Part shown: in pieces, positions 2,636 through 42,486 of the stretch
Numbering within the stretch: the stretch's first letter is position 1
Layout of the letters: every line of letters begins with the position of its first letter
Origin: a virus
Length of the DNA: 42,486 bases
IMG/VR virus record: IMGVR_UViG_3300019768_000009
Location: 1 to 42,486 of that record
Direction: 5' to 3' (one strand)
Made by a program: the position numbers and the translations under genes
Notes under the pieces: model-generated
What the model saw: the letters and a program-made list of their open reading frames with translations, nothing else
Database searches by the model: none
Told to the model about the DNA's origin: nothing

Positions 2636-3022
2636 TTATAGCGTTTTTATATCTATATTCCCATAACCTAGTTCTAGTAAAGCATTCCTCAATATAACTA
2701 TATCGCTATCTTTAGCTTGGTAGACAGTTATACCTAGGTTAACAGTATTGACTTTAGTAATACTATAAGAGTCTATATATTCATAAGCGAGTAAGATTTT
2801 CCTACCATCAACATCTAATAATACATATTTTAAATCTTCGACCCCAGGAAGTGCAGGTACAATACCGATAACCTCCTGGTGTAGTGTGTGTATATCACGA
2901 TACTTAATCGCTTCTTCAGCAGTCATAATGCCTATAACTTTCACATTACTAAAATTAGCACCTAGTAGAGTCGGTGCTAGTGTAGAGAAGTCATAACTTT
3001 GATTCAATTCCATTTTCATCAT
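2636..3022 (-). CDS. Hypothetical protein (last gene of the small-protein cassette)
   Basis: This 128-residue protein was not recognised. It is mostly alternating beta-strand and short helix in character: several valine/isoleucine-rich strands such as KVIGIMTAEEA and IVILRNALLELGYG, and no membrane segment. Three in-frame ATGs lie close together (3022, 3019, 3013) behind a strong AAGGAG site. The spacing favours 3019 slightly over 3022, changing the product by one residue. It is the last of seven consecutive minus-strand genes and is followed directly by a hairpin terminator. By context it is probably a late, virion-associated or assembly protein, but that is inference only. Confidence 0.75.
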   Translation of the reverse strand: MMKMELNQSYDFSTLAPTLLGANFSNVKVIGIMTAEEAIKYRDIHTLHQEVIGIVPALPGVEDLKYVLLDVDGRKILLAYEYIDSYSITKVNTVNLGITVYQAKDSDIVILRNALLELGYGNIDIKTL

Positions 3023-5912: not shown

Positions 5913-7031
5913 TTATAAAACCAGTCCGTCATTATTCATAGTTCCAGCATCTGTTCCTAAACTATCACTCACAATACTTTTAGCTATAGTATTGAACTCA
6001 TTCAAGGTAGTACTCAATGCTCTATGTTCATCAGTTAACGCACCTGCAAAAGTTATTAGATGTACAACAGGTGGAAATAGTTTTCTATGTGTCACATGGC
6101 TACTGTGACCTTTCTTAGTATGTAACAGAATGAACCCAGTGTCAGTATCTAAGTTAGTATGCGTCTCTTTGTCAACATTTTTCTCTGGTGTGATTACAAT
6201 AGTGCGCGCGCCAGTTGGTGTGTAGCTTTTAGGTATGTTATCTTGAGGACGCCCAGCAAAAGTTTGGATACCATATAGACCAGGTTGTATTTTCAAACTA
6301 GCGTAGTCTACTTGGTTAAGGAAGTTCTGCATATCTTTATTATCGATAGAGTTTATACCAGCACTTAAAAACAGTAGAGTAGTTGTAATAGTGTTGTATA
6401 GTCTATCATTTATAATCTGTTCTGCGTTACACTTACTCTCTTCATCACTAAGATTGACATTGTTGTCATATATCATACATAACGCAGTTTTCGTATTGAC
6501 AGCTAAAGCATTGAATGTCTCAATAACCTTTATAGTATTACTAGTACTAATACTTGTAGAGCTATCACCTACACAGACACAAATACAAGGGATCTTCAAT
6601 GATAGTAACTTATTAACTATACCATACGCTGCTATGTTACCAGTCCCACCTGACGCAGAGAATATAACTAGATGGTACTCTCCAGTTACAGGTTCTTTGA
6701 TTCCTTTATTGTCTAAATATGAATGCATACTGCTTAATATGTCAGATGCATGCGTACTTCTCTCTCCGCCAGAACCATCTATCAATGGTGTATCGTGGTT
6801 CTTAGTTTCTATCTTCCAAAATTCGCCTTCTAAGATAGGAACATTAACACCTTTAATATTAGCTCTTGAAGTATCTATATAGTTATGTTCGATACTAGGT
6901 AACCCACCGCCTTGACCGTTATCACACACTTTCTTCATAACATCGATAGCTATATTAATACCACACCCACCGCAATAGTGAACATATACATTATTCTCTC
7001 GTTCTTCTGTTTTCTTCATCTGACTTTCCAT
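5913..7031 (-). CDS. FtsZ/tubulin-superfamily GTPase (phage tubulin, PhuZ-like)
   Basis: A 372-residue protein with the signature loops of the tubulin/FtsZ GTPases in the right order: T1 phosphate loop CGGCGIN (about 20-26), the glycine-rich T4 signature SASGGTGN (125-132), a helix-7 ND pair (208-209) and the T7 catalytic loop NQVDYASL (239-246), whose aspartate would complete the GTPase site of the next subunit. In phiKZ-like phages the related PhuZ forms filaments that centre the phage nucleus and carry capsids. That is known for the family and inferred here. The T4 loop ends G-N rather than the usual G-S-G or G-T-G. The protein is longer than PhuZ (about 315 residues), so a TubZ-like or new branch is possible. 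It shares a minus-strand cluster with a zinc-ribbon gene upstream and ends at a strong terminator. Confidence 0.85.
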   Translation of the reverse strand: MESQMKKTEERENNVYVHYCGGCGINIAIDVMKKVCDNGQGGGLPSIEHNYIDTSRANIKGVNVPILEGEFWKIETKNHDTPLIDGSGGERSTHASDILSSMHSYLDNKGIKEPVTGEYHLVIFSASGGTGNIAAYGIVNKLLSLKIPCICVCVGDSSTSISTSNTIKVIETFNALAVNTKTALCMIYDNNVNLSDEESKCNAEQIINDRLYNTITTTLLFLSAGINSIDNKDMQNFLNQVDYASLKIQPGLYGIQTFAGRPQDNIPKSYTPTGARTIVITPEKNVDKETHTNLDTDTGFILLHTKKGHSSHVTHRKLFPPVVHLITFAGALTDEHRALSTTLNEFNTIAKSIVSDSLGTDAGTMNNDGLVL

Positions 7032-7386: not shown

Positions 7387-7800
7387 TCACTTATTACTAT
7401 TCCATACTTTCTTATTAAGTACTTTAAACGAGTGTTGTATGTTCTCTTTATGACTCACCCACTCTAGATTAACTCTACGGTTATCATTACGATTACCATT
7501 CTTGTGATTGACCTCCTCTCTATTCTTGATAGTAGGTAGATATAGACTAGCAACTATACGGTGCGCTTGTATGTGCTTCTTCTTACGATGACTATTAGTT
7601 AAGACATACTCAACATAACCATCTCTAGTGATGAATGGTTTCATCTTATGACAAGATAAGAGACCAGTAGTCTTCTCTCTATCTGTTTTATCCATAAGGT
7701 ATACATTACCTTTATCATCAGCTAGGTATCTATTGTCGAATGTATAGTTTTTCATCTTAGATAGATTCTTCATTTTAGTTATTACTATTTTAACTTTCAT
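7387..7800 (-). CDS. HNH homing endonuclease (free-standing)
   Basis: A 137-residue protein with a clear HNH domain in its C-terminal half: AHRIVASLYLP, then VNHKNGNRNDNRRVNLEWV and SHKENIQHSF, matching the HNH_3 pattern of phage homing endonucleases. The N-terminal half (NRYLADDKGNVYLM and KPFITRDGYVEYVL) resembles the DNA-recognition part of these enzymes. It starts only three bases after the stop of the RNA polymerase beta' fragment, with no obvious ribosome binding site of its own. No group I intron core was found around it, so it looks like a stand-alone selfish gene inserted beside or at the end of the beta' gene. Confidence 0.9.
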   Translation of the reverse strand: MKVKIVITKMKNLSKMKNYTFDNRYLADDKGNVYLMDKTDREKTTGLLSCHKMKPFITRDGYVEYVLTNSHRKKKHIQAHRIVASLYLPTIKNREEVNHKNGNRNDNRRVNLEWVSHKENIQHSFKVLNKKVWNSNK

Positions 7801-7803
7801 ACT

Positions 7804-9420
7804 CTAAGCCGTCATATGAGCTATAACTAGTTCATTAACACCCACCGAAGATGTAAAGATAATCTCACCCTCAGGTGAAACATAGTATTTTCTATCATTT
7901 AACATTTTTTCTATCTCCGCTATACTCTCGTCAGTATGCATAGTATTAGCACTCATAGTGTCCCCATCAAAATCTGCCGTTAGTGTCTCTAGATGACAGA
8001 AGTGTGGGCTTAAGCTAGCTACGAATTCATCATCAAGGTTCGGATACTCGATAATATCTCTTACATTACCTTGCTCTCTAAATTGAACCTTACGACCAGT
8101 CACAGTAGTCTTAACATATAACTTAGTAGGGTATACACCACCCATAGATGCCACAGGGTATCTAGTCACGATAGCAGGATATTTATCCCTTATATCATAT
8201 ATAGCTAAATATAATAACTCAATATATGTTATAGGCCGTAGATACTTTTTATTATAAGTATCATCTAGATTTTTAGTGTCGAATATAACTTCTATACTTT
8301 TACCATCGTCATATATCAAGAACATATAATAACCATCTATAGTTATAGGACTCACCTTAATACTATCTTGTGCTAACTTCGAAGTTATGTCATCTAACCC
8401 TTCTAAGGTTAACCACTCATCTCGTTTCTTAATATCTATAGTTACAACTTCAGTTGACATACTCTTAGGGTTAACTAATACAGCATTGTTATTATCTGGA
8501 GACAGTATCTTATTGATATACTTTTGATGTAGCCTATGGGCAGCTATAGCTGGCAGTGATTTAATGTATTGATACAGACCCATGACTGTATGGTCCATAG
8601 TTATACTATTAGGGTCGTCTAGGTCAGTACATAAGTTAACGCTAGGAGTTATAACATTCCTAGTACCATCGACTATAGCACGCTTCGCCCATTTACCTTG
8701 TATGAACTTATTCTTACCATCTAACAACTCTTTGAAATGTAAATATAGTTGTAGGGTTATATTCTGTATCTTGAGCCTTATAGGGTCTAACATAGTTAAG
8801 TTATCTTTAGTAACTTTAATATTACTAAGCAGACTAACACTACCTAAGAGTGAACGATATATATCATTAACTTCATCTTCAGATACGCCATCTTTAGATA
8901 TCTCATAATCTCTTAAGCCTGCAGGTAACACTACCCATTTATTAATCCAGATTTTCTCTCTAAGAGACTTCGTAACTAAATCAATCCTAGCTTGCCTCTG
9001 GTCACCTCCTTTAACAAATGCTATCTTAGGAAGGTGGTCTATGAAATATGTATACCCAGTTCCACTATCTTGGTCTTCCGAGGTAGCTATCCTAAAATCA
9101 TTGATTTCATTATCAAACACGACTTCTTTATTACCAGACATTATCTCGCCATATAGAGATTTCAGTGAGACTAGTTGTTGGTATACCAACGGGTGTAATA
9201 TATCAACATGGAGGTTAATGTAACCTGGAGTCTCAGACCGCAATGGTGAGCCTATCGGGCCGAATATCTCAGTACTAAATAACCCATCTCTTGAAAATAG
9301 ATTAGAGTTGGGTTCGAATATATTAGCTACCTTAACTTCTCCTAAATACTTCAGCTGTGCTGGCTGAAGCATTAATAAGTCTATATTAAATAGATTTCTA
9401 TCTAATGGTAATTGTGACAT
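7804..9420 (-). CDS. RNA polymerase beta' subunit, N-terminal fragment with catalytic DFDGD
   Basis: A 538-residue counterpart of the N-terminal third of bacterial beta'. The N-terminus carries RDGLFSTEIFGPIGSP, matching the bacterial RDGLFCERIFGP motif. RYPVASMGGVYPTKLYV corresponds to the NRAPTLHRLGIQ region. The active-site motif ADFDGD (DFDGD at 483-487) holds the three aspartates that bind catalytic magnesium. The zinc-binding cysteines usual after the N-terminal motif are absent. The protein ends ELVIAHMTA, at the position of bacterial GLYYMT, so the rest of beta' must be a separate subunit, as known in phiKZ-like phages. Its neighbour is the lytic tail protein, an arrangement I recall for phiKZ gp180-gp181, so it is more likely the virion RNA polymerase subunit. 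The start has an AAAGGAA site. Confidence 0.92.
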   Translation of the reverse strand: MSQLPLDRNLFNIDLLMLQPAQLKYLGEVKVANIFEPNSNLFSRDGLFSTEIFGPIGSPLRSETPGYINLHVDILHPLVYQQLVSLKSLYGEIMSGNKEVVFDNEINDFRIATSEDQDSGTGYTYFIDHLPKIAFVKGGDQRQARIDLVTKSLREKIWINKWVVLPAGLRDYEISKDGVSEDEVNDIYRSLLGSVSLLSNIKVTKDNLTMLDPIRLKIQNITLQLYLHFKELLDGKNKFIQGKWAKRAIVDGTRNVITPSVNLCTDLDDPNSITMDHTVMGLYQYIKSLPAIAAHRLHQKYINKILSPDNNNAVLVNPKSMSTEVVTIDIKKRDEWLTLEGLDDITSKLAQDSIKVSPITIDGYYMFLIYDDGKSIEVIFDTKNLDDTYNKKYLRPITYIELLYLAIYDIRDKYPAIVTRYPVASMGGVYPTKLYVKTTVTGRKVQFREQGNVRDIIEYPNLDDEFVASLSPHFCHLETLTADFDGDTMSANTMHTDESIAEIEKMLNDRKYYVSPEGEIIFTSSVGVNELVIAHMTA

Positions 9421-30065: not shown

Positions 30066-31547
30066 TTACTTAGTTATTATAAAGTTATTACTCATAGTTT
30101 TATAGATAGAGTACTTAATGATAGACCCGTCACTATCCGCAACTGCTAATTCTGTTTCACAATCATGATCTAACTCATCTTGCACTTTCATCATATCCGA
30201 TATCATCAAATACAGTTCTTCATGTGAGCTAGGTGTTACTGTACGCGCGCCACTTTTACAGTTACGCTCAAGGTCTGCGGCATAGTATCTATTATCTGTA
30301 CACAATATAGTTATCCCATGCTCTATATCCCATACTATGCATTTATCGTCTTTTTCAAAGATGATATTCATACCTTGTAACATATCTTCGATTTTCGCTA
30401 TAGTCTTTATTATAGCTTGTCGCTGTTTTGTATTGTTTATAGCAGGTATAGTTTCAGTTATTAACTCATTAACATCGTTAAATTTCTCGAGATATATGTT
30501 AGTAGGTGTGTATTTTAAATATTTATTCACCATCGTTAAAAGCTGTCTATTGAGTATCTTGACTATAGTGCTATTGCTATATTGTTTAAACAATATAACA
30601 TAATCTTGAAGCTTATTCGTCGCTTTAAATGCTTTGATAAACACATCAGGCTCTATGTCGGCTTTAGTAACTATACTTTGATGTTTCTCTGTGTGATATA
30701 TAGCATTATTAGTACCTTGTACACAACAGAAATATCTCATAAGACCATACATATCAAACTTAACTAATTCTGGTGGGTCTATAGTCTTATCATCAGCAAG
30801 ATTAAGTAAGACTATATCTTGCGTATACATGTCACTCGAAGTTTCATTACCTACAACTTCATATTCAAAATACTTACCTAAATCCTTTTTAACAGTTTTT
30901 AACCCATCAGCTAAGAATATAGGGTATTCACTACCCTCCACTGGTGTCTGTTTAACTGGAACTGGTGGTGTTGGAGGAGTAGGCGGGACTGCGTTCATTT
31001 GATTAACACTGTTACTACTAGTAGTATTAGGTGGAGTGAATCCATTAGTCGGTTGACCATAGGTTGTTGTAGGTTGAACTGGTTGGGTGTTATTATTAGG
31101 ATATCTACGTCCGCCGGGGTTAACTGTTGTTGGTGTGTTATAACGAGGGTCTACTGTCGGCATTCTCTGGAACGCATTAGTGTTATTAAACCCACCCTGA
31201 CCCATCTGGTTGTACGATTGCGTATTACCAGGATATGTTTGTCCAGGGTATCCTGTTTGATCTCTATTAAAACCTGTTTGTGGCATACCACCTGGAGTTG
31301 GTATAGATTGTCCAGGATACATAGTATTCTGGTTGTACATAGCATTCTGATTAAACCCATTAGTAGGTTGTCCATATGTTGGATTCATTTGACCATTACC
31401 CATTGAGTTTTGGTATCTATTAAGAGTTTCAATCTTTTTATTAATGTTGGCTATAATAGCATTATAGTTAGGGTCCGCAGGTGTCATATATTGCAGTTGA
31501 TTTTCTAGTGCAGATATTTCACTTTGTAGTTGTTGTAAATTATTCAA
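30066..31547 (-). CDS. Protein with coiled coil, Q/N/P/G-rich disordered linker and folded C-terminal domain
   Basis: A 493-residue three-part protein. Residues 1-45 form a leucine-heptad coiled coil (LQSEISALENQLQYM). Residues 50-210 are a low-complexity stretch of Gln, Asn, Pro, Gly, Tyr and Thr with repeated YPGQ and an exact duplicate of TYGQPTNGF. Residues 215-493 look folded (EYPIFLADGLKTVKKDLGKY and a beta-rich end). It shows no enzyme motif. It lies directly downstream of the RNA polymerase beta fragment and probably shares its transcript, with an AAAAAGGA site before the ATG. Prion-like linkers of this kind can be flexible spacers or drive condensation. Which applies is unknown. Confidence 0.75.
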   Translation of the reverse strand: MNNLQQLQSEISALENQLQYMTPADPNYNAIIANINKKIETLNRYQNSMGNGQMNPTYGQPTNGFNQNAMYNQNTMYPGQSIPTPGGMPQTGFNRDQTGYPGQTYPGNTQSYNQMGQGGFNNTNAFQRMPTVDPRYNTPTTVNPGGRRYPNNNTQPVQPTTTYGQPTNGFTPPNTTSSNSVNQMNAVPPTPPTPPVPVKQTPVEGSEYPIFLADGLKTVKKDLGKYFEYEVVGNETSSDMYTQDIVLLNLADDKTIDPPELVKFDMYGLMRYFCCVQGTNNAIYHTEKHQSIVTKADIEPDVFIKAFKATNKLQDYVILFKQYSNSTIVKILNRQLLTMVNKYLKYTPTNIYLEKFNDVNELITETIPAINNTKQRQAIIKTIAKIEDMLQGMNIIFEKDDKCIVWDIEHGITILCTDNRYYAADLERNCKSGARTVTPSSHEELYLMISDMMKVQDELDHDCETELAVADSDGSIIKYSIYKTMSNNFIITK

Positions 31548-33685: not shown

Positions 33686-34864
33686 TTATAGTATTAATTT
33701 CGGTATAACTTTAGATATGTAATCGATTCCACCTCTGTGAATATCAGCATTATGTTTCGCTAATATTCCAGCTATCTCCATTCGGAACTTCGATGTATTA
33801 ACTATGCTTTCATATCTAGTTTTCTTTCTAATATTCGTTAACTCTAACTCTTTCTTCCGCACATCTAAATTACCTATATTAGATTTTTGTTCTAATATTT
33901 TAACTTCGTGTTTATGTTTAATTTTACACATCTCGGCATCTTTATTTATCTTCATAGCTTCGTGATTTATCTTCTTCTCTTCGATACCAATCTTAGCTCT
34001 TTCTAAAGCGACTTTCTGTAACTGTAGTGTAACTTCAGGGTTACCACATGCTTCAGCGGAGGAGAGGTCGTTATAGATACCAAACTCTTCGGCAGCATCA
34101 CTGAGAGATGACCTACGGGAGGATACCAATACAGTGTTTTTATACCATTTGAACCTGATACCTTCTAAACGATTCTCATCTTTAGTAGGTACTAAAGTAG
34201 TTATTACATTACCTACTTGGAAGTATCTGACATCGTTACTATGATTATCTATTACCTCTATCTCTATAGCGTTTCTCGTTCTCACTCTTCTACTACTACT
34301 CTCTTTATGTCGTAAACTATGCGGGTGTATAGTGTTACCATATACCATACCATTAATTATTAGTATGTCTGTTTTATCTACATATACATGTAGATAGTCA
34401 TTAATCTCACTAGATGGTATGAATGTAATGAGTCGTATAGTGATTTCCATATTTCTATTATGTACTCCTACTTTTATCTTATTCTGTATAGCCTTTACAA
34501 CCTCTTCATCGTACTCTAGATTATGAGTATGTATATAGTAGTCGAATAGGCTATGCATGTTGATACTACCATCATTGTGTATGGTATAATAGTCTATAAT
34601 GTAGACACCTTCTTCCTTACCAATCTTAGGTAATTGAGACTGCTTTAAAGACTCTTTCTTTCTTATAGGGACTATGATATTGTTACTGAACATTGCTGTT
34701 AACCCACTACCCATAGTGCTGAATAGATATTGACCACGGTCAGTTTTACCATAATCCTTATCTTGGCTATAGTTTGAGGTGTTATTAAATATATCATCAT
34801 CGGCATTACGATGCGAGTTACATAACTGAATATAGTTTACCCCCACATGTGTCTTAGTATACAT
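33686..34864 (-). CDS. Hypothetical protein with C-terminal charged coiled coil (392 aa)
   Basis: A 392-residue protein. The frame opens at a GTG (34870), but AAGGAG lies immediately before the ATG at 34864, which is the start. The N-terminal 240 residues are mixed alpha/beta, with EITIRLITFIPSSEINDYLH, a basic serine/arginine patch (HKESSSRRVRTRN) and a short beta segment. From about 270 to 365 there is a highly charged helix (ALERAKIGIEEKKINHEAM, VKILEQKSNIGNLDVRKKE) with coiled-coil character. It lies 13 bases upstream of the RNA polymerase beta gene on the same strand. No family is certain. An SPFH-like domain followed by coiled coil is a thought but not supported by a motif. Confidence 0.7.
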   Translation of the reverse strand: MYTKTHVGVNYIQLCNSHRNADDDIFNNTSNYSQDKDYGKTDRGQYLFSTMGSGLTAMFSNNIIVPIRKKESLKQSQLPKIGKEEGVYIIDYYTIHNDGSINMHSLFDYYIHTHNLEYDEEVVKAIQNKIKVGVHNRNMEITIRLITFIPSSEINDYLHVYVDKTDILIINGMVYGNTIHPHSLRHKESSSRRVRTRNAIEIEVIDNHSNDVRYFQVGNVITTLVPTKDENRLEGIRFKWYKNTVLVSSRRSSLSDAAEEFGIYNDLSSAEACGNPEVTLQLQKVALERAKIGIEEKKINHEAMKINKDAEMCKIKHKHEVKILEQKSNIGNLDVRKKELELTNIRKKTRYESIVNTSKFRMEIAGILAKHNADIHRGGIDYISKVIPKLIL

Positions 34865-34958
34865 ACACACTCCTTGATTCCTTGGTTTATTTATTACTTC
34901 TCTAATTGAATAATATATGGGTTTAAATAAATGTGTTTAATAACATATGCGGTCAATA

Positions 34959-35000: not shown

Positions 35001-37121
35001 CTATGAAACCGCGTGGTGATTTTGTGTAATCTTACTAAAGACCTTCGAAATATCTGCATTGATAACACCCATAACTGGGATATGTACAATATGTCTAAAT
35101 CTTGGATTAGTTTGTAGGAATCTTGATGTACTACCATTTATAGTTTTCTGTACATCTGTAGTTACAGCAGGACTCCATGCACAGTTACCAAAGTTCAATG
35201 GATGAACTGAATTTCTATCCTTACCGAAGACACCGAACGAGATAAAGATTCTGCCAGCTACCTTTTTAGATAATGTTGACGCAACTTTACCGCTGAACAT
35301 ACCACCTAACTCTACATGCCCTTCTGGGTCATCTGTTAATAGTGTTTTAGTATATTCATCACAACCTATAATAATTTTAACTGCATTAGCAGGAACACCT
35401 AACGATTGCATAGCATGTGCATAACCAGATTGTGTATATAAATCAACTGCCATAAGTTTGATATTGTTAACTAACGCTGCTCTTATATCAGCTAATCTAT
35501 CTTTAGACGATAACGAATCTATTACAGTCGATAGATTAATAGACTCTTCTCTATAACATAACTTTAGATGGTGTGAGCCTATACCAGCGACCTGTGGAGA
35601 GATATTAATATTGTTATTATAAGCATTTCTCAATCTTTCAGCCTGTTCAACTACTGCGTTAGTTGCAGCTATAGATGTTTTGATTGATGTTACATTTATT
35701 TGGTCTGCTAACCTATCAATATCTGAACCAACTGTATTACCTGTAGCACCGATTACACTTAAACCAACTTTAGTTGATACAGGATAATTAGTAGTAAAAC
35801 TCTCTTGTGTTAATATCTGACCAACAGTTCTTAAGTTAGAGTTTGTTCTATAACTATCTACATCGTAACCAACAATTTTGAATGAATCAGCAACAGCTTT
35901 AATAGCGATATAAACTGGGTCAGTACTTAATAAAGCATTACCTGCAGCATCGTAAATATTGTTGATGTTAAAATTTAAACCAAATACTGATAAAGCTGAA
36001 GTTTGTGTATGGCAACTACCATGCATCTTAACACCCATATCAATAGTGTGGTCTGGAGCTAACTCTGCTAAAATAGCTGATGTAATACCTTTAACAGTTT
36101 TGCTCGTTGTAGTTAAGCCGTAATTAGTTATCTGGAAGTTTAGAGCTAACTCTTCAGCTGAACCTTGTGTAGTGGCAGCAAAGTTATTGTGGTTATATAT
36201 ATTAGTATCGATGTCGAACATTTCTGTAACAGTTGTTGTTCCGTTACTACCAGTTAATGTAAAGTATAACTTAGCTAGACTTATACTAGAAATGATATCC
36301 GTATTATCCATACTTCCTTTAGCTAATGTTGCATCAGATTGTGAAATACCTAATAATGATACTTCTTTACCTATAGCAATAGGTGCAGTGATAACTTCTT
36401 CACCAGTACTATTATTTAAATATTCATATCCAGTAGCGAACATATTAGCATTTTCAGTTCGTTTTACAGGAACTATCTTACTTTGCTCTATTTCAAATGT
36501 ACTTTGCTCTCTAATAGCCTCTGTTAAAGATACTTTATTCACATTAGCACCATTTGTCTCACCCGAGATATCGTGACTGTACTGTGTAGTTATCGATGTA
36601 ACATTAGTAGTTATAGTTAAACCTGCGGCTGTCGGGTCAAGTGTTATAGTTGGTAAGAATAACTCACCAAAAGCATCTTGTGTCTGCATTAAGTTAGATA
36701 CAATCGAATAAACTAGTGCGTTTTCCCAGATAGCACCATCGTATGATTCTCTAGCAATCACAGAACCACCTGTCCCTGGTTCTTCTATAGCTAGTAATGT
36801 GTTACCATTATCTTTAAAACCTTGTGTCTGTAACTTCGAAACACCCATTGGACTTGTATAAGGCACAATATCACTAGCGGCAGCCATCTGTGCTTTAGTA
36901 AATTCTATTTTTTCTCCACTTTCTGTACTGACCGCTAAACCATTAACAGTACTTAAAATGATATCCCCTACTTCACCTACATTACCAGCAATTAATTGTT
37001 TTGATTCATCATCTGCGTCTTCTCTAGCTATTAATAAATTAACATCTGTTGCTGATGTACTCATACCTGTTTTTAACTCAGTAACTAGAGTTTGGATATG
37101 TTGAGTTGATATTTGTTGCAT
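35001..37121 (-). CDS. Major capsid protein (phiKZ gp120-like)
   Basis: A 706-residue protein, close to the 747 I recall for phiKZ gp120. It is rich in alanine, threonine, serine, asparagine and valine with few cysteines. A helical propeptide-like N-terminus (about 1-65) precedes a beta-rich body. A C-terminal region of HK97-fold style contains VKIIIGCDEYTKTLL and RIFISFGVFGKDRNSVHPL. In phiKZ-like phages a prohead protease cleaves capsid proteins after [Ser/Ala/Gly]-x-Glu. Candidates here are VSTE (end at 67), SGE (70), AIE (113) and ARE (125). Codon and base composition are less AT-biased than in neighbours, as often for highly expressed genes. It has a single-gene layout with its own 136-base leader and terminator. 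Confidence 0.82.
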   Translation of the reverse strand: MQQISTQHIQTLVTELKTGMSTSATDVNLLIAREDADDESKQLIAGNVGEVGDIILSTVNGLAVSTESGEKIEFTKAQMAAASDIVPYTSPMGVSKLQTQGFKDNGNTLLAIEEPGTGGSVIARESYDGAIWENALVYSIVSNLMQTQDAFGELFLPTITLDPTAAGLTITTNVTSITTQYSHDISGETNGANVNKVSLTEAIREQSTFEIEQSKIVPVKRTENANMFATGYEYLNNSTGEEVITAPIAIGKEVSLLGISQSDATLAKGSMDNTDIISSISLAKLYFTLTGSNGTTTVTEMFDIDTNIYNHNNFAATTQGSAEELALNFQITNYGLTTTSKTVKGITSAILAELAPDHTIDMGVKMHGSCHTQTSALSVFGLNFNINNIYDAAGNALLSTDPVYIAIKAVADSFKIVGYDVDSYRTNSNLRTVGQILTQESFTTNYPVSTKVGLSVIGATGNTVGSDIDRLADQINVTSIKTSIAATNAVVEQAERLRNAYNNNINISPQVAGIGSHHLKLCYREESINLSTVIDSLSSKDRLADIRAALVNNIKLMAVDLYTQSGYAHAMQSLGVPANAVKIIIGCDEYTKTLLTDDPEGHVELGGMFSGKVASTLSKKVAGRIFISFGVFGKDRNSVHPLNFGNCAWSPAVTTDVQKTINGSTSRFLQTNPRFRHIVHIPVMGVINADISKVFSKITQNHHAVS

Positions 37122-39657: not shown

Positions 39658-40197
39658 TTATTGAAATTGTGTCACTTTTACACCATGTTCTACTAACAGT
39701 TCGATACCAGTTCTATCACTATAACTATCTTTATATATAACCTGTTTAATACCGCTCAGAGCTATTAATTTAGCGCAAATAACACATGGACTAGTAGTAA
39801 CATACATAACACCACCTTCAAGCTTATAACCCTTCTTACAAGCGTACATTAATGCTACTTGCTCAGCATGCATAGTTGTATCTAATGTTTTAGATTCTAA
39901 CTTACTTATATCTACTTGTGGTATATACGCTATATCTCTACTACAATCACACTTTTTATTATACTCCACTCTACTATTTACCCTATGCCGCTTCTCACAA
40001 CTTTCACATGTGATATGGTACTCCTCACACTCTCCGCCATCTAAAGTTCTATTATAACCATATAAGGGTCTAGTATCATTAGGTCTCATGATGACGCAAC
40101 CTACTTTTCTTCTCTTACATTTAGATAACTCCGCGTAGTATATCGCTTGACTCATCATTTCGTTATGTTTAACTTTAGTAATTCCATCTATATGCAT
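39658..40197 (-). CDS. Deoxycytidylate (dCMP) deaminase
   Basis: A 179-residue zinc-dependent deaminase of the cytidine/deoxycytidylate family. The catalytic zinc site is clear: HAE in TTMHAEQVALMYA and the PCVIC cysteines in TTSPCVICAKLIALSGI. Between residues about 55 and 90 an insert contains four to five cysteines (CEEYHITCESCEKRH and KKCDCSRD), which probably bind a second structural zinc, as in some phage dCMP deaminases. The enzyme converts dCMP to dUMP, feeding dTTP synthesis. It lies back to back with the ribonucleotide reductase gene, consistent with a nucleotide-supply cluster. The ATG has an AAAGGAA site. Confidence 0.92.
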   Translation of the reverse strand: MHIDGITKVKHNEMMSQAIYYAELSKCKRRKVGCVIMRPNDTRPLYGYNRTLDGGECEEYHITCESCEKRHRVNSRVEYNKKCDCSRDIAYIPQVDISKLESKTLDTTMHAEQVALMYACKKGYKLEGGVMYVTTSPCVICAKLIALSGIKQVIYKDSYSDRTGIELLVEHGVKVTQFQ

Positions 40198-40356: not shown

Positions 40357-42486
40357 ATGAATGTACAAAAACGAAATGGGAATTTAGAGGCTATTAATTG
40401 GGAGCATATTGCTAAACAGACAAAGTTAGCTTGCGCAGGGTTAAGTGGTGTATCGCATACAGTATTAGAGAGAGCTATAGCTCCAGAGATAGTAGATGGT
40501 ATACCCACTACTTCTATACAAAATATGTTGATAACTAAAGCTAGTAATAGAGTGTCAGTAGATGAACCTAATTGGACATATGTGGCTAGTAGGTTAATGC
40601 TATATTCACTGTACCATGAAAGTAAAAGAAGATACTTTGGGAATAATAAACAACATGGTGATGTCTACCAACAAATCAAGTTAGAAGATGCTTTTCTAAA
40701 ATATAATAAAAAGTATAATTTAACACAAGAAGAGACTAACTTGTACGACTGGGATAAGTTAAATAAACTTATAATAGTAGAGAATGATTACCATTATAAT
40801 TACCTTGCTATGAAATCATTAATGACTAGATACTTACTATCTGTTAAAGGTGAAGTTGTGGAGCTACCACAACATATGTTAATGTTCACAGCTATGGTGT
40901 TAGCTAAGAAAGAAGCACCAGAAGATGTCATGTATTGGACAGAACATTTCTATAATGTGTTATCTAACGGAGAAGGGTTGTTAGCTACACCATCGTTAGC
41001 TAAGCTAAGGATTAAAAATGGTAACTGTTTTAGTTGTGCGGTAGGTTACACGCCTGATAGTATTGAAGGTATCTTCGATAGTTATAAATTCCAAGCTTTG
41101 GGTTCTAAAGCTGGTTGCGGTTGGGGATGGGACTGGAGTAGAGTACGAGCTAGCGGGAGTACGATAGAAGATAAACCTGGCGTAGCAGGTGGTGTTATAC
41201 CATTTTTATCTTTAGAGAATGGGGTCACAATTGCTGTTAATCAACTAGGTGTTAGATTAGGGGCTATCAATGCGGGATTAGAGTGTTGGCATTTAGATAT
41301 ATACGCATTTATCGAGTTGAAGAAAGATGGAGGTTCTTATAATAGAAGAGCTAAAGAGTTAACTATATCTTGTAGTATGTCAGATGAGTATATGCGACGA
41401 GTAGATAATGATGAAGATTGGACATTATTCGACCCATATGACACTAATGACTTATGCGATTTACATGGTGATGCTTTTAGTGCAAGATACAGAGAGTATG
41501 AGAGAGGTCATATAGATGGTACTATGGTGTTCGCTAACCAACCAATTACGATTAAAGCAAAAGACCTGTGGAAAAAAGTACAAAGGTCAGCATTCGATAC
41601 TGGTTATCCGTTTATATTCTTTAAAGATACTGTTAATAAAGATATAACACCAGAGATATCTACAGAACATGGTATTGTTAATTCTGGTAACTTATGTATG
41701 GAATATCTATCACCTATCCCTAAGGATAGTAATGTAATAACACTGTGTAACTTAGGTAGTATAAATATTAATAAAGTTAACACGGTTGAGGATATGAAGA
41801 GGGTTATACCTATCATGACGAGAATGTTAGATAATGTTATAGATATCGCACATTATGCTATACCTAACTCTAAAGATACACAACTAAAGAGAAGAAGCAT
41901 AGGGCTCGGAGTAGTTGGTGAAGGTGAGTTCATAGCTAATAAAGGGATGATGTATGGTAGCGAGGAGCATCTAGAATGGATAGATGGTTATTATAAGATG
42001 TTCAGCGAGTTATCTGACCAAGCCTCGTTAGAGTTAGGTAATGAGAGAGGAGAGTGGAGCGAAGGTGAAGGGTATAGGAATATGCATAGAAGAGCCATAG
42101 CACCTACATCATCTATAGCTATTCTAATGGACACAACTAATGGACACGAACCATGTTTTGATAAGATATGGTTAGAAGATAACGATTTAGGTAAATTCCT
42201 AATGACGGCACCGCATATCAATCCAGATAACGCACCCTATTACATCAATGCTTATGAAGTAGACCAAAAGATGTTTGTAAGAACAACAGCTGTCCGTGGT
42301 AAGTATATTGATATGGGTATTAGTCACTCTATGTATTTCGTACCAGAAGAGTCTAGTGGGAAAGAGATTTTCGATACATATATATTAGCTTGGAAATTAG
42401 GTTTGAAGACTACTTATTATTTAAGAACTAGATCAGCTAAGGCTAATATAACAGGTGTTGAGGGTGAAGAGGTATTACATGTATCT
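40357..42486 (+). CDS. nrdA: Ribonucleoside-diphosphate reductase large subunit, class I (incomplete at 3' end)
   Basis: 710 residues are visible with no stop before the window ends. The N-terminus (VQKRNGNLEAINWEHIAKQT) looks like an ATP-cone, the allosteric activity domain. PNWTYVASRLML follows, as in NrdA. Catalytic residues are in place: C227 (FSCAV) and C464 (TLCNLGSIN) as the redox pair, and N445, C447 and E449 in GNLCMEYLSP, where C447 would carry the thiyl radical. TTYYLRTRSAK near the visible end matches the tyrosine pair of the radical-transfer path. The enzyme reduces ribonucleotides to deoxyribonucleotides for phage DNA synthesis. It needs a small radical-generating subunit (NrdB), not in the window. 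AAAGGA precedes the ATG. It is divergent from the dCMP deaminase. Confidence 0.95.
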   Translation, partial: MNVQKRNGNLEAINWEHIAKQTKLACAGLSGVSHTVLERAIAPEIVDGIPTTSIQNMLITKASNRVSVDEPNWTYVASRLMLYSLYHESKRRYFGNNKQHGDVYQQIKLEDAFLKYNKKYNLTQEETNLYDWDKLNKLIIVENDYHYNYLAMKSLMTRYLLSVKGEVVELPQHMLMFTAMVLAKKEAPEDVMYWTEHFYNVLSNGEGLLATPSLAKLRIKNGNCFSCAVGYTPDSIEGIFDSYKFQALGSKAGCGWGWDWSRVRASGSTIEDKPGVAGGVIPFLSLENGVTIAVNQLGVRLGAINAGLECWHLDIYAFIELKKDGGSYNRRAKELTISCSMSDEYMRRVDNDEDWTLFDPYDTNDLCDLHGDAFSARYREYERGHIDGTMVFANQPITIKAKDLWKKVQRSAFDTGYPFIFFKDTVNKDITPEISTEHGIVNSGNLCMEYLSPIPKDSNVITLCNLGSININKVNTVEDMKRVIPIMTRMLDNVIDIAHYAIPNSKDTQLKRRSIGLGVVGEGEFIANKGMMYGSEEHLEWIDGYYKMFSELSDQASLELGNERGEWSEGEGYRNMHRRAIAPTSSIAILMDTTNGHEPCFDKIWLEDNDLGKFLMTAPHINPDNAPYYINAYEVDQKMFVRTTAVRGKYIDMGISHSMYFVPEESSGKEIFDTYILAWKLGLKTTYYLRTRSAKANITGVEGEEVLHVS

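Follow-up and report, generated by a model that had tools for sequence, protein, structure and literature searches.

The window analysed here, a stretch of viral DNA of 42,486 nucleotides, contains a phuZ gene encoding a phage tubulin GTPase of 372 amino acids at positions 5913–7031 on the minus strand. The assignment draws on profile, tree, predicted structure and start site. The open reading frame is intact, with 372 codons, an ATG start at 7031 and a Shine-Dalgarno-like AAAGG located 9 nt upstream of the start codon. A 163-codon plus-strand ORF is nested in phuZ, and nothing else in the analysis backs it. Downstream of phuZ, on the same strand, are SH3DP (2636–3022), which encodes an SH3-fold protein associated with phage DNA polymerases, a divergent family B DNA polymerase (divDNApol, 211–2526, E = 4.8e-178, also placed by a tree) and the first part of a gene for a baseplate assembly protein (1–192, PHROG 3216), which the contig end cuts. 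Upstream, on the same strand, are a free-standing HNH endonuclease gene (7387–7800), whose position is conserved in close relatives, and the gene of an RNA polymerase beta-type subunit (7804–9420, PHROG 2986). The phiKZ-type major capsid protein is encoded at 35001–37121, again on the minus strand (PF25620, E = 6.7e-109).

The order phuZ, small ORFs, SH3DP and DNA polymerase is found in most relatives, and several of them also have the HNH gene and the RNA polymerase subunit upstream of phuZ. The location of phuZ upstream of the DNA polymerase extends to the isolates Goslar, FishSpeaker, PhiEaH1, OBP, LucasX and BONAISHI. The phiKZ-type capsid, divergent DNA polymerase and multisubunit RNA polymerase genes of the window are features of the Chimalliviridae; such capsid and polymerase genes also occur in some relatives without a nucleus. 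Goslar likewise has an HNH gene, which together with a group I intron comes after the RNA polymerase subunit adjoining chmA, the gene of the nuclear shell protein.

Sequence profile, phylogeny and predicted structure agree in identifying the protein as a tubulin/FtsZ-like GTPase, as proposed by the sequence-only reading of this DNA. PHROG 4733 'tubulin PhuZ' matches residues 13–263 (E = 1.3e-33), and no other tubulin family in Pfam or PHROG gives a significant match. The Pfam Tubulin model reaches 13.8 bits, under its cut-off, and the TubZ family does not match. Among 50,697 phage records, the top matches to the window PhuZ are 22–30% identical and many of them carry a PhuZ annotation. A phmmer search of PDB sequences has a Goslar PhuZ chain as its top match (E = 7e-14). 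The AlphaFold model, built on an alignment of 57 proteins taken from the window and its relatives, has a tubulin fold (pLDDT 90.7, pTM 0.90). Its nearest structural kin are PhuZ proteins, which make up the top five PDB entries in Foldseek (9pm9, 3zbq, 3r4v, 3rb8 and 3zbp, E = 9e-25 to 2e-17) and are followed by CetZ (6e-14), TubZ (2e-11) and FtsZ (5e-11).

Goslar PhuZ (9pm9), the best match in both structure and PDB sequence, is 27% identical to the window protein over 250 residues. It has the same T1, T4 and T7 architecture and is likewise encoded upstream of the DNA polymerase, but it is shorter, its T4 loop ends in S, and chmA is located just past the polymerase. Our literature search found no paper on the Goslar PhuZ structure. 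The PhuZ proteins of 201phi2-1 and phiKZ (3r4v, 3rb8, 3zbq and 3zbp) and of PhiPA3 also come from phiKZ-type phages and share the tubulin fold and the invariant T7 aspartates, while their identity to the window protein in structural alignments is 15–18%. Judged by its sequence and modelled fold, the window protein is a divergent but genuine PhuZ, a kind of protein that is already known. It is very probable that the gene encodes the tubulin typical of nucleus-forming jumbo phages (Chimalliviridae), here from an uncultivated lineage.

As the tubulin/FtsZ fold is common to several families, and TubZ and FtsZ also matched in the structure search, if less well, the protein could in principle be a partition tubulin of the TubZ type that segregates a plasmid-like prophage, or a mimic of FtsZ that interferes with host division. 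We consider this highly implausible. Each of the five PhuZ structures has an E-value five or more orders of magnitude better than any TubZ or FtsZ, the PhuZ PHROG is the sole significant match with Pfam Tubulin remaining under its cut-off, and the capsid, tail and polymerase genes are those of a phiKZ-type phage. Partition families had no match among the window proteins searched, a set that includes some but not every small ORF.

The GTP-binding loops T1, T3 and T4 noticed in the sequence-only reading are all found in the window PhuZ. T1 is GGCGIN (residues 21–26; 6954–6971, minus strand), with G21 and G22 conserved across the family, T3 is DGSGGER (residues 85–91) and T4 is SASGGTGN (residues 125–132; 6636–6659, minus strand). 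The glycines G21, G22, G128, G129 and G131 are kept in an alignment of 85 sequences. Neither of the two outcomes named beforehand as refuting a tubulin, a prediction without the fold and a GTP site stripped of its binding residues, was obtained. The T7 loop had been read as N-x-V-D. Every alignment instead puts it at N227-S-I-D230-N-K-D233 (NSIDNKD, residues 227–233; 6333–6353, minus strand), where the aspartates D230 and D233 occupy the catalytic positions and are invariant (85 of 85 PhuZ sequences). The look-alike NQVD at residues 239–242 (6306–6317, minus strand) is probably what was taken for T7. D233 is aligned with D198 of RAY, whose alanine mutant is hydrolysis-deficient (PMC10299810). 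In 201phi2-1, the D190A mutant gives stable filaments and has a reduced critical concentration (PMC4244570).

The T4 loop had also been contrasted with the common GGGTGSG. The unusual part is N132, which replaces the usual S; this position is S in 73 and N in 2 of the 85 PhuZ sequences. The rest of the contrast is mostly a trait of the PhuZ family, in which the T4 pattern is S-A/G-S/G-G-G-S/T-G-S. The window retains 24 of the 26 positions that are conserved in 85% of the family, deviating at N132 and V169.

The earlier estimate that the protein is about 55 residues longer than PhuZ is close to the measured values, 46 residues relative to Goslar and phiKZ-type PhuZ (326 aa) and 57 relative to PhiPA3 PhuZ (315 aa). 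Approximately 52 residues lack a counterpart in most studied PhuZ proteins and are spread over ten segments (residues 3–11, 37–41, 66–67, 77–83, 111–115, 196–202, 246–247, 263–264, 281–291 and 318–319). Attention had been drawn to the C-terminal tail, but the extra length sits in loops and in an N-terminal extension. The tail is not longer, and its end, N-D-G-L-V-L, is of the PhuZ family type. The 11-residue insertion TPEKNVDKETH (residues 281–291; 6159–6191, minus strand) is found only in the window and belongs to a lower-confidence part of the model.

A scan for close relatives with the window PhuZ alone as the query returned none; relatives were found through DNA polymerase scans and PhuZ alignment scans. 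The PhuZ tree was calculated with IQ-TREE from 76 sequences, with E. coli FtsZ as an outgroup on a very long branch and with TubZ and CetZ left out. Within the radiation of phage PhuZ proteins, the window copy belongs to a deep, uncultivated clade of 14 members (support 100/97). All 14 members originate from metagenomes or MAGs, with no cultured phage among those examined, and we found no study describing this clade in our literature search. The clade relatives (L005, L006, L009, L027, L028, L032–L037, L107 and L108) have several of the added loops in common with the window, as well as the phuZ–DNA polymerase module. Their PhuZ proteins are mostly 341–365 aa long, and the window differs from them in its 372 aa, longer branch, N132 and private insertion.

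An independent DNA polymerase tree groups the window with L005 and L006. Compared with L005, L006 and L009, the window is 52–59% identical in the polymerase and 30–38% in PhuZ; the corresponding values among these three relatives are 52–57% and 45–52%. The PhuZ end branch has a length of 1.15 for the window versus 0.36–0.47 for L005, L006 and L009, and the polymerase branch of the window is ordinary (0.45). Because the PhuZ identities and end branch diverge while the polymerase is ordinary, we regard the window PhuZ as fast-evolving. By these sequence comparisons, it is changing two to three times faster than in close relatives, and the polymerase is not. The fast change may reflect adaptation or relaxed constraint, both of which are compatible with these data.

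The sequence-only reading raised the possibility of a phage nucleus and proposed looking for its shell protein elsewhere in the genome. Searches with PHROG 4795 and an alignment profile do not find chmA on the 42 kb window, which is a fragment. Whole-record searches, however, reveal chmA in all five PhuZ-clade records of at least 180 kb. Going by the coordinates, it is downstream of phuZ by about 37 kb in L005, 36 kb in L009, 27 kb in L028 and 42 kb in L032; the L035 record has chmA elsewhere. L036 (46 kb record), which branches off first within the PhuZ clade, has chmA in the usual place, 8 kb from phuZ. PHROG 4795 'nuclear shell protein' detects chmA in eight records, and this profile and PDB chimallin independently confirm two of the chmA proteins. 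No chmA was found in two further members of the clade, fragments of 107 and 110 kb, nor in a whole-record search of the 39 kb L006 record.

In Goslar, FishSpeaker and PhiEaH1, where the shell gene is annotated, and in OBP, LucasX and BONAISHI, where it is recognised by a profile match, it is located within a few kb after the polymerase. The window, L005, L006 and L009 have a baseplate gene in this place. A PhuZ without a nucleus, an idea prompted by this arrangement in the three relatives, was rejected, as chmA is present elsewhere in L005 and L009. A position of chmA within about 3 kb past the left end of the window is likewise wrong for this lineage. The window stops 5.9 kb downstream of phuZ, and therefore chmA is not expected on it; by comparison with the relatives, the chmA of this phage would sit beyond the left end. 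Although the gene is absent from the fragment, chmA in clade relatives and the phiKZ-type capsid, DNA polymerase and RNA polymerase genes speak for a nucleus. As chmA occurs in all five long clade records, this phage likely forms one. In two records of the same polymerase clade, chmA is found just upstream of the DNA polymerase (7082–8911 in L007 and 6841–8676 in L008). These fragments of 52 and 59 kb contain no recognisable phuZ, which may reflect fragmentation.

While the family membership, predicted fold, nucleotide-binding and T7 residues, gene neighbourhood and presence of chmA in close relatives are established here, polymerisation, hydrolysis, positioning and capsid transport in this phage would follow from the studied PhuZ proteins. 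The monomers would bind GTP via the T1–T6 loops and join head to tail, with D230 and D233 of the T7 loop completing the GTPase site of the next subunit. GTP hydrolysis would render the filament dynamic. The filaments could then position or rotate the phage DNA compartment and bring capsids to it. The role of PhuZ in this phage could be modest, since the protein is dispensable in chimalliviruses and missing from a third of them (PMC10299810).

The earlier caution about a PhuZ-like triple-stranded filament, a trait of some PhuZ members only, is upheld. Assembly of 201phi2-1 PhuZ requires the salt bridges R217:D305 and E225:R290 (PMC10299810). These positions align with R261 or Q263, T271, T348 and A362 of the window, where the salt-bridge residues are not evident, in C-terminal columns that align poorly. 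They are not retained in the clade either, according to a sequence alignment that is weak in this region. In Erwinia phage RAY these salt bridges are not conserved, and the putative filaments are five-stranded (PMC10299810). It is thus conceivable that the window protein, alone or along with its lineage, is a PhuZ with altered lateral contacts that is not three-stranded, comparable to the five-stranded tubes proposed for RAY, which would refine the assignment to PhuZ. The loops gained by the clade and the fast change of the window PhuZ are in line with this. However, PhiPA3 PhuZ is three-stranded (PMC10299810) and in the alignment has A290 at the R290 equivalent, leaving one partner missing. 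Loss of the salt-bridge pairs alone is therefore no predictor of strand number, and the poor alignment of the C-terminal columns makes the positions uncertain. We tentatively view altered lateral contacts as possible. It is rather doubtful that this tubulin no longer assembles in the usual PhuZ way, with fast change and new surface loops accompanying a new filament architecture that is adapted to an unusual host. Such a host would belong neither to the gammaproteobacteria nor to the betaproteobacteria, which are the usual ones, but perhaps to the iron-oxidising Zetaproteobacteria. The accelerated divergence could also indicate a PhuZ under relaxed constraint that is heading for loss, an event that recurs among chimalliviruses. 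The private 11-residue insertion would fit this, as would N132 and V169, which deviate from residues that most of the family conserves, and the non-essentiality of PhuZ and its known loss from several lineages (PMC11724907). Nevertheless, the gene has an intact ORF and a good start site, nearly all family-conserved positions are kept and the model is confident; we regard impending loss as improbable.

Within a set of 84,980 species, each represented by one genome, the clade PhuZ is found only in two Mariprofundaceae MAGs. The clade phage contigs L107 and L108 are binned in these Mariprofundaceae (Zetaproteobacteria) MAGs, which come from one project, AMOR20. When 78 genomes from across the class were searched, this polymerase turned up in the same two MAGs and in no others, so the host hint derives from binning. 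The G+C content is 41–42% for the two phage contigs, 37–46% for the readable sampled MAG contigs and 34% for the window. Mariprofundaceae are a possible host of the clade or share its habitat. Given the common project of the MAGs and the 34% G+C of the window, the hint concerns the clade and is not evidence for the host of the window.

To our knowledge, PhuZ filaments have been studied only in a small number of cultured phages, whose hosts are Pseudomonas, Erwinia and Escherichia. A well-supported uncultured clade that keeps phuZ, with chmA 27–42 kb away in several genomes, suggests that the spindle and nucleus are widespread beyond cultured phages and that their genes may be apart in the genome. 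The clade also constitutes a set of natural variants for asking what sets the strand number and dynamics of phage tubulins.

Other parts of the window contain additional genes. In the phage core region, 30066–31547 and 33686–34870 (minus strand) encode proteins of 493 and 394 aa that have no Pfam match, no convincing PHROG match and no PDB sequence match. A dCMP deaminase gene (39658–40197, minus strand) precedes a plus-strand ORF (40358–42486) that by eye resembles the ribonucleotide reductase large subunit and runs off the right contig end.
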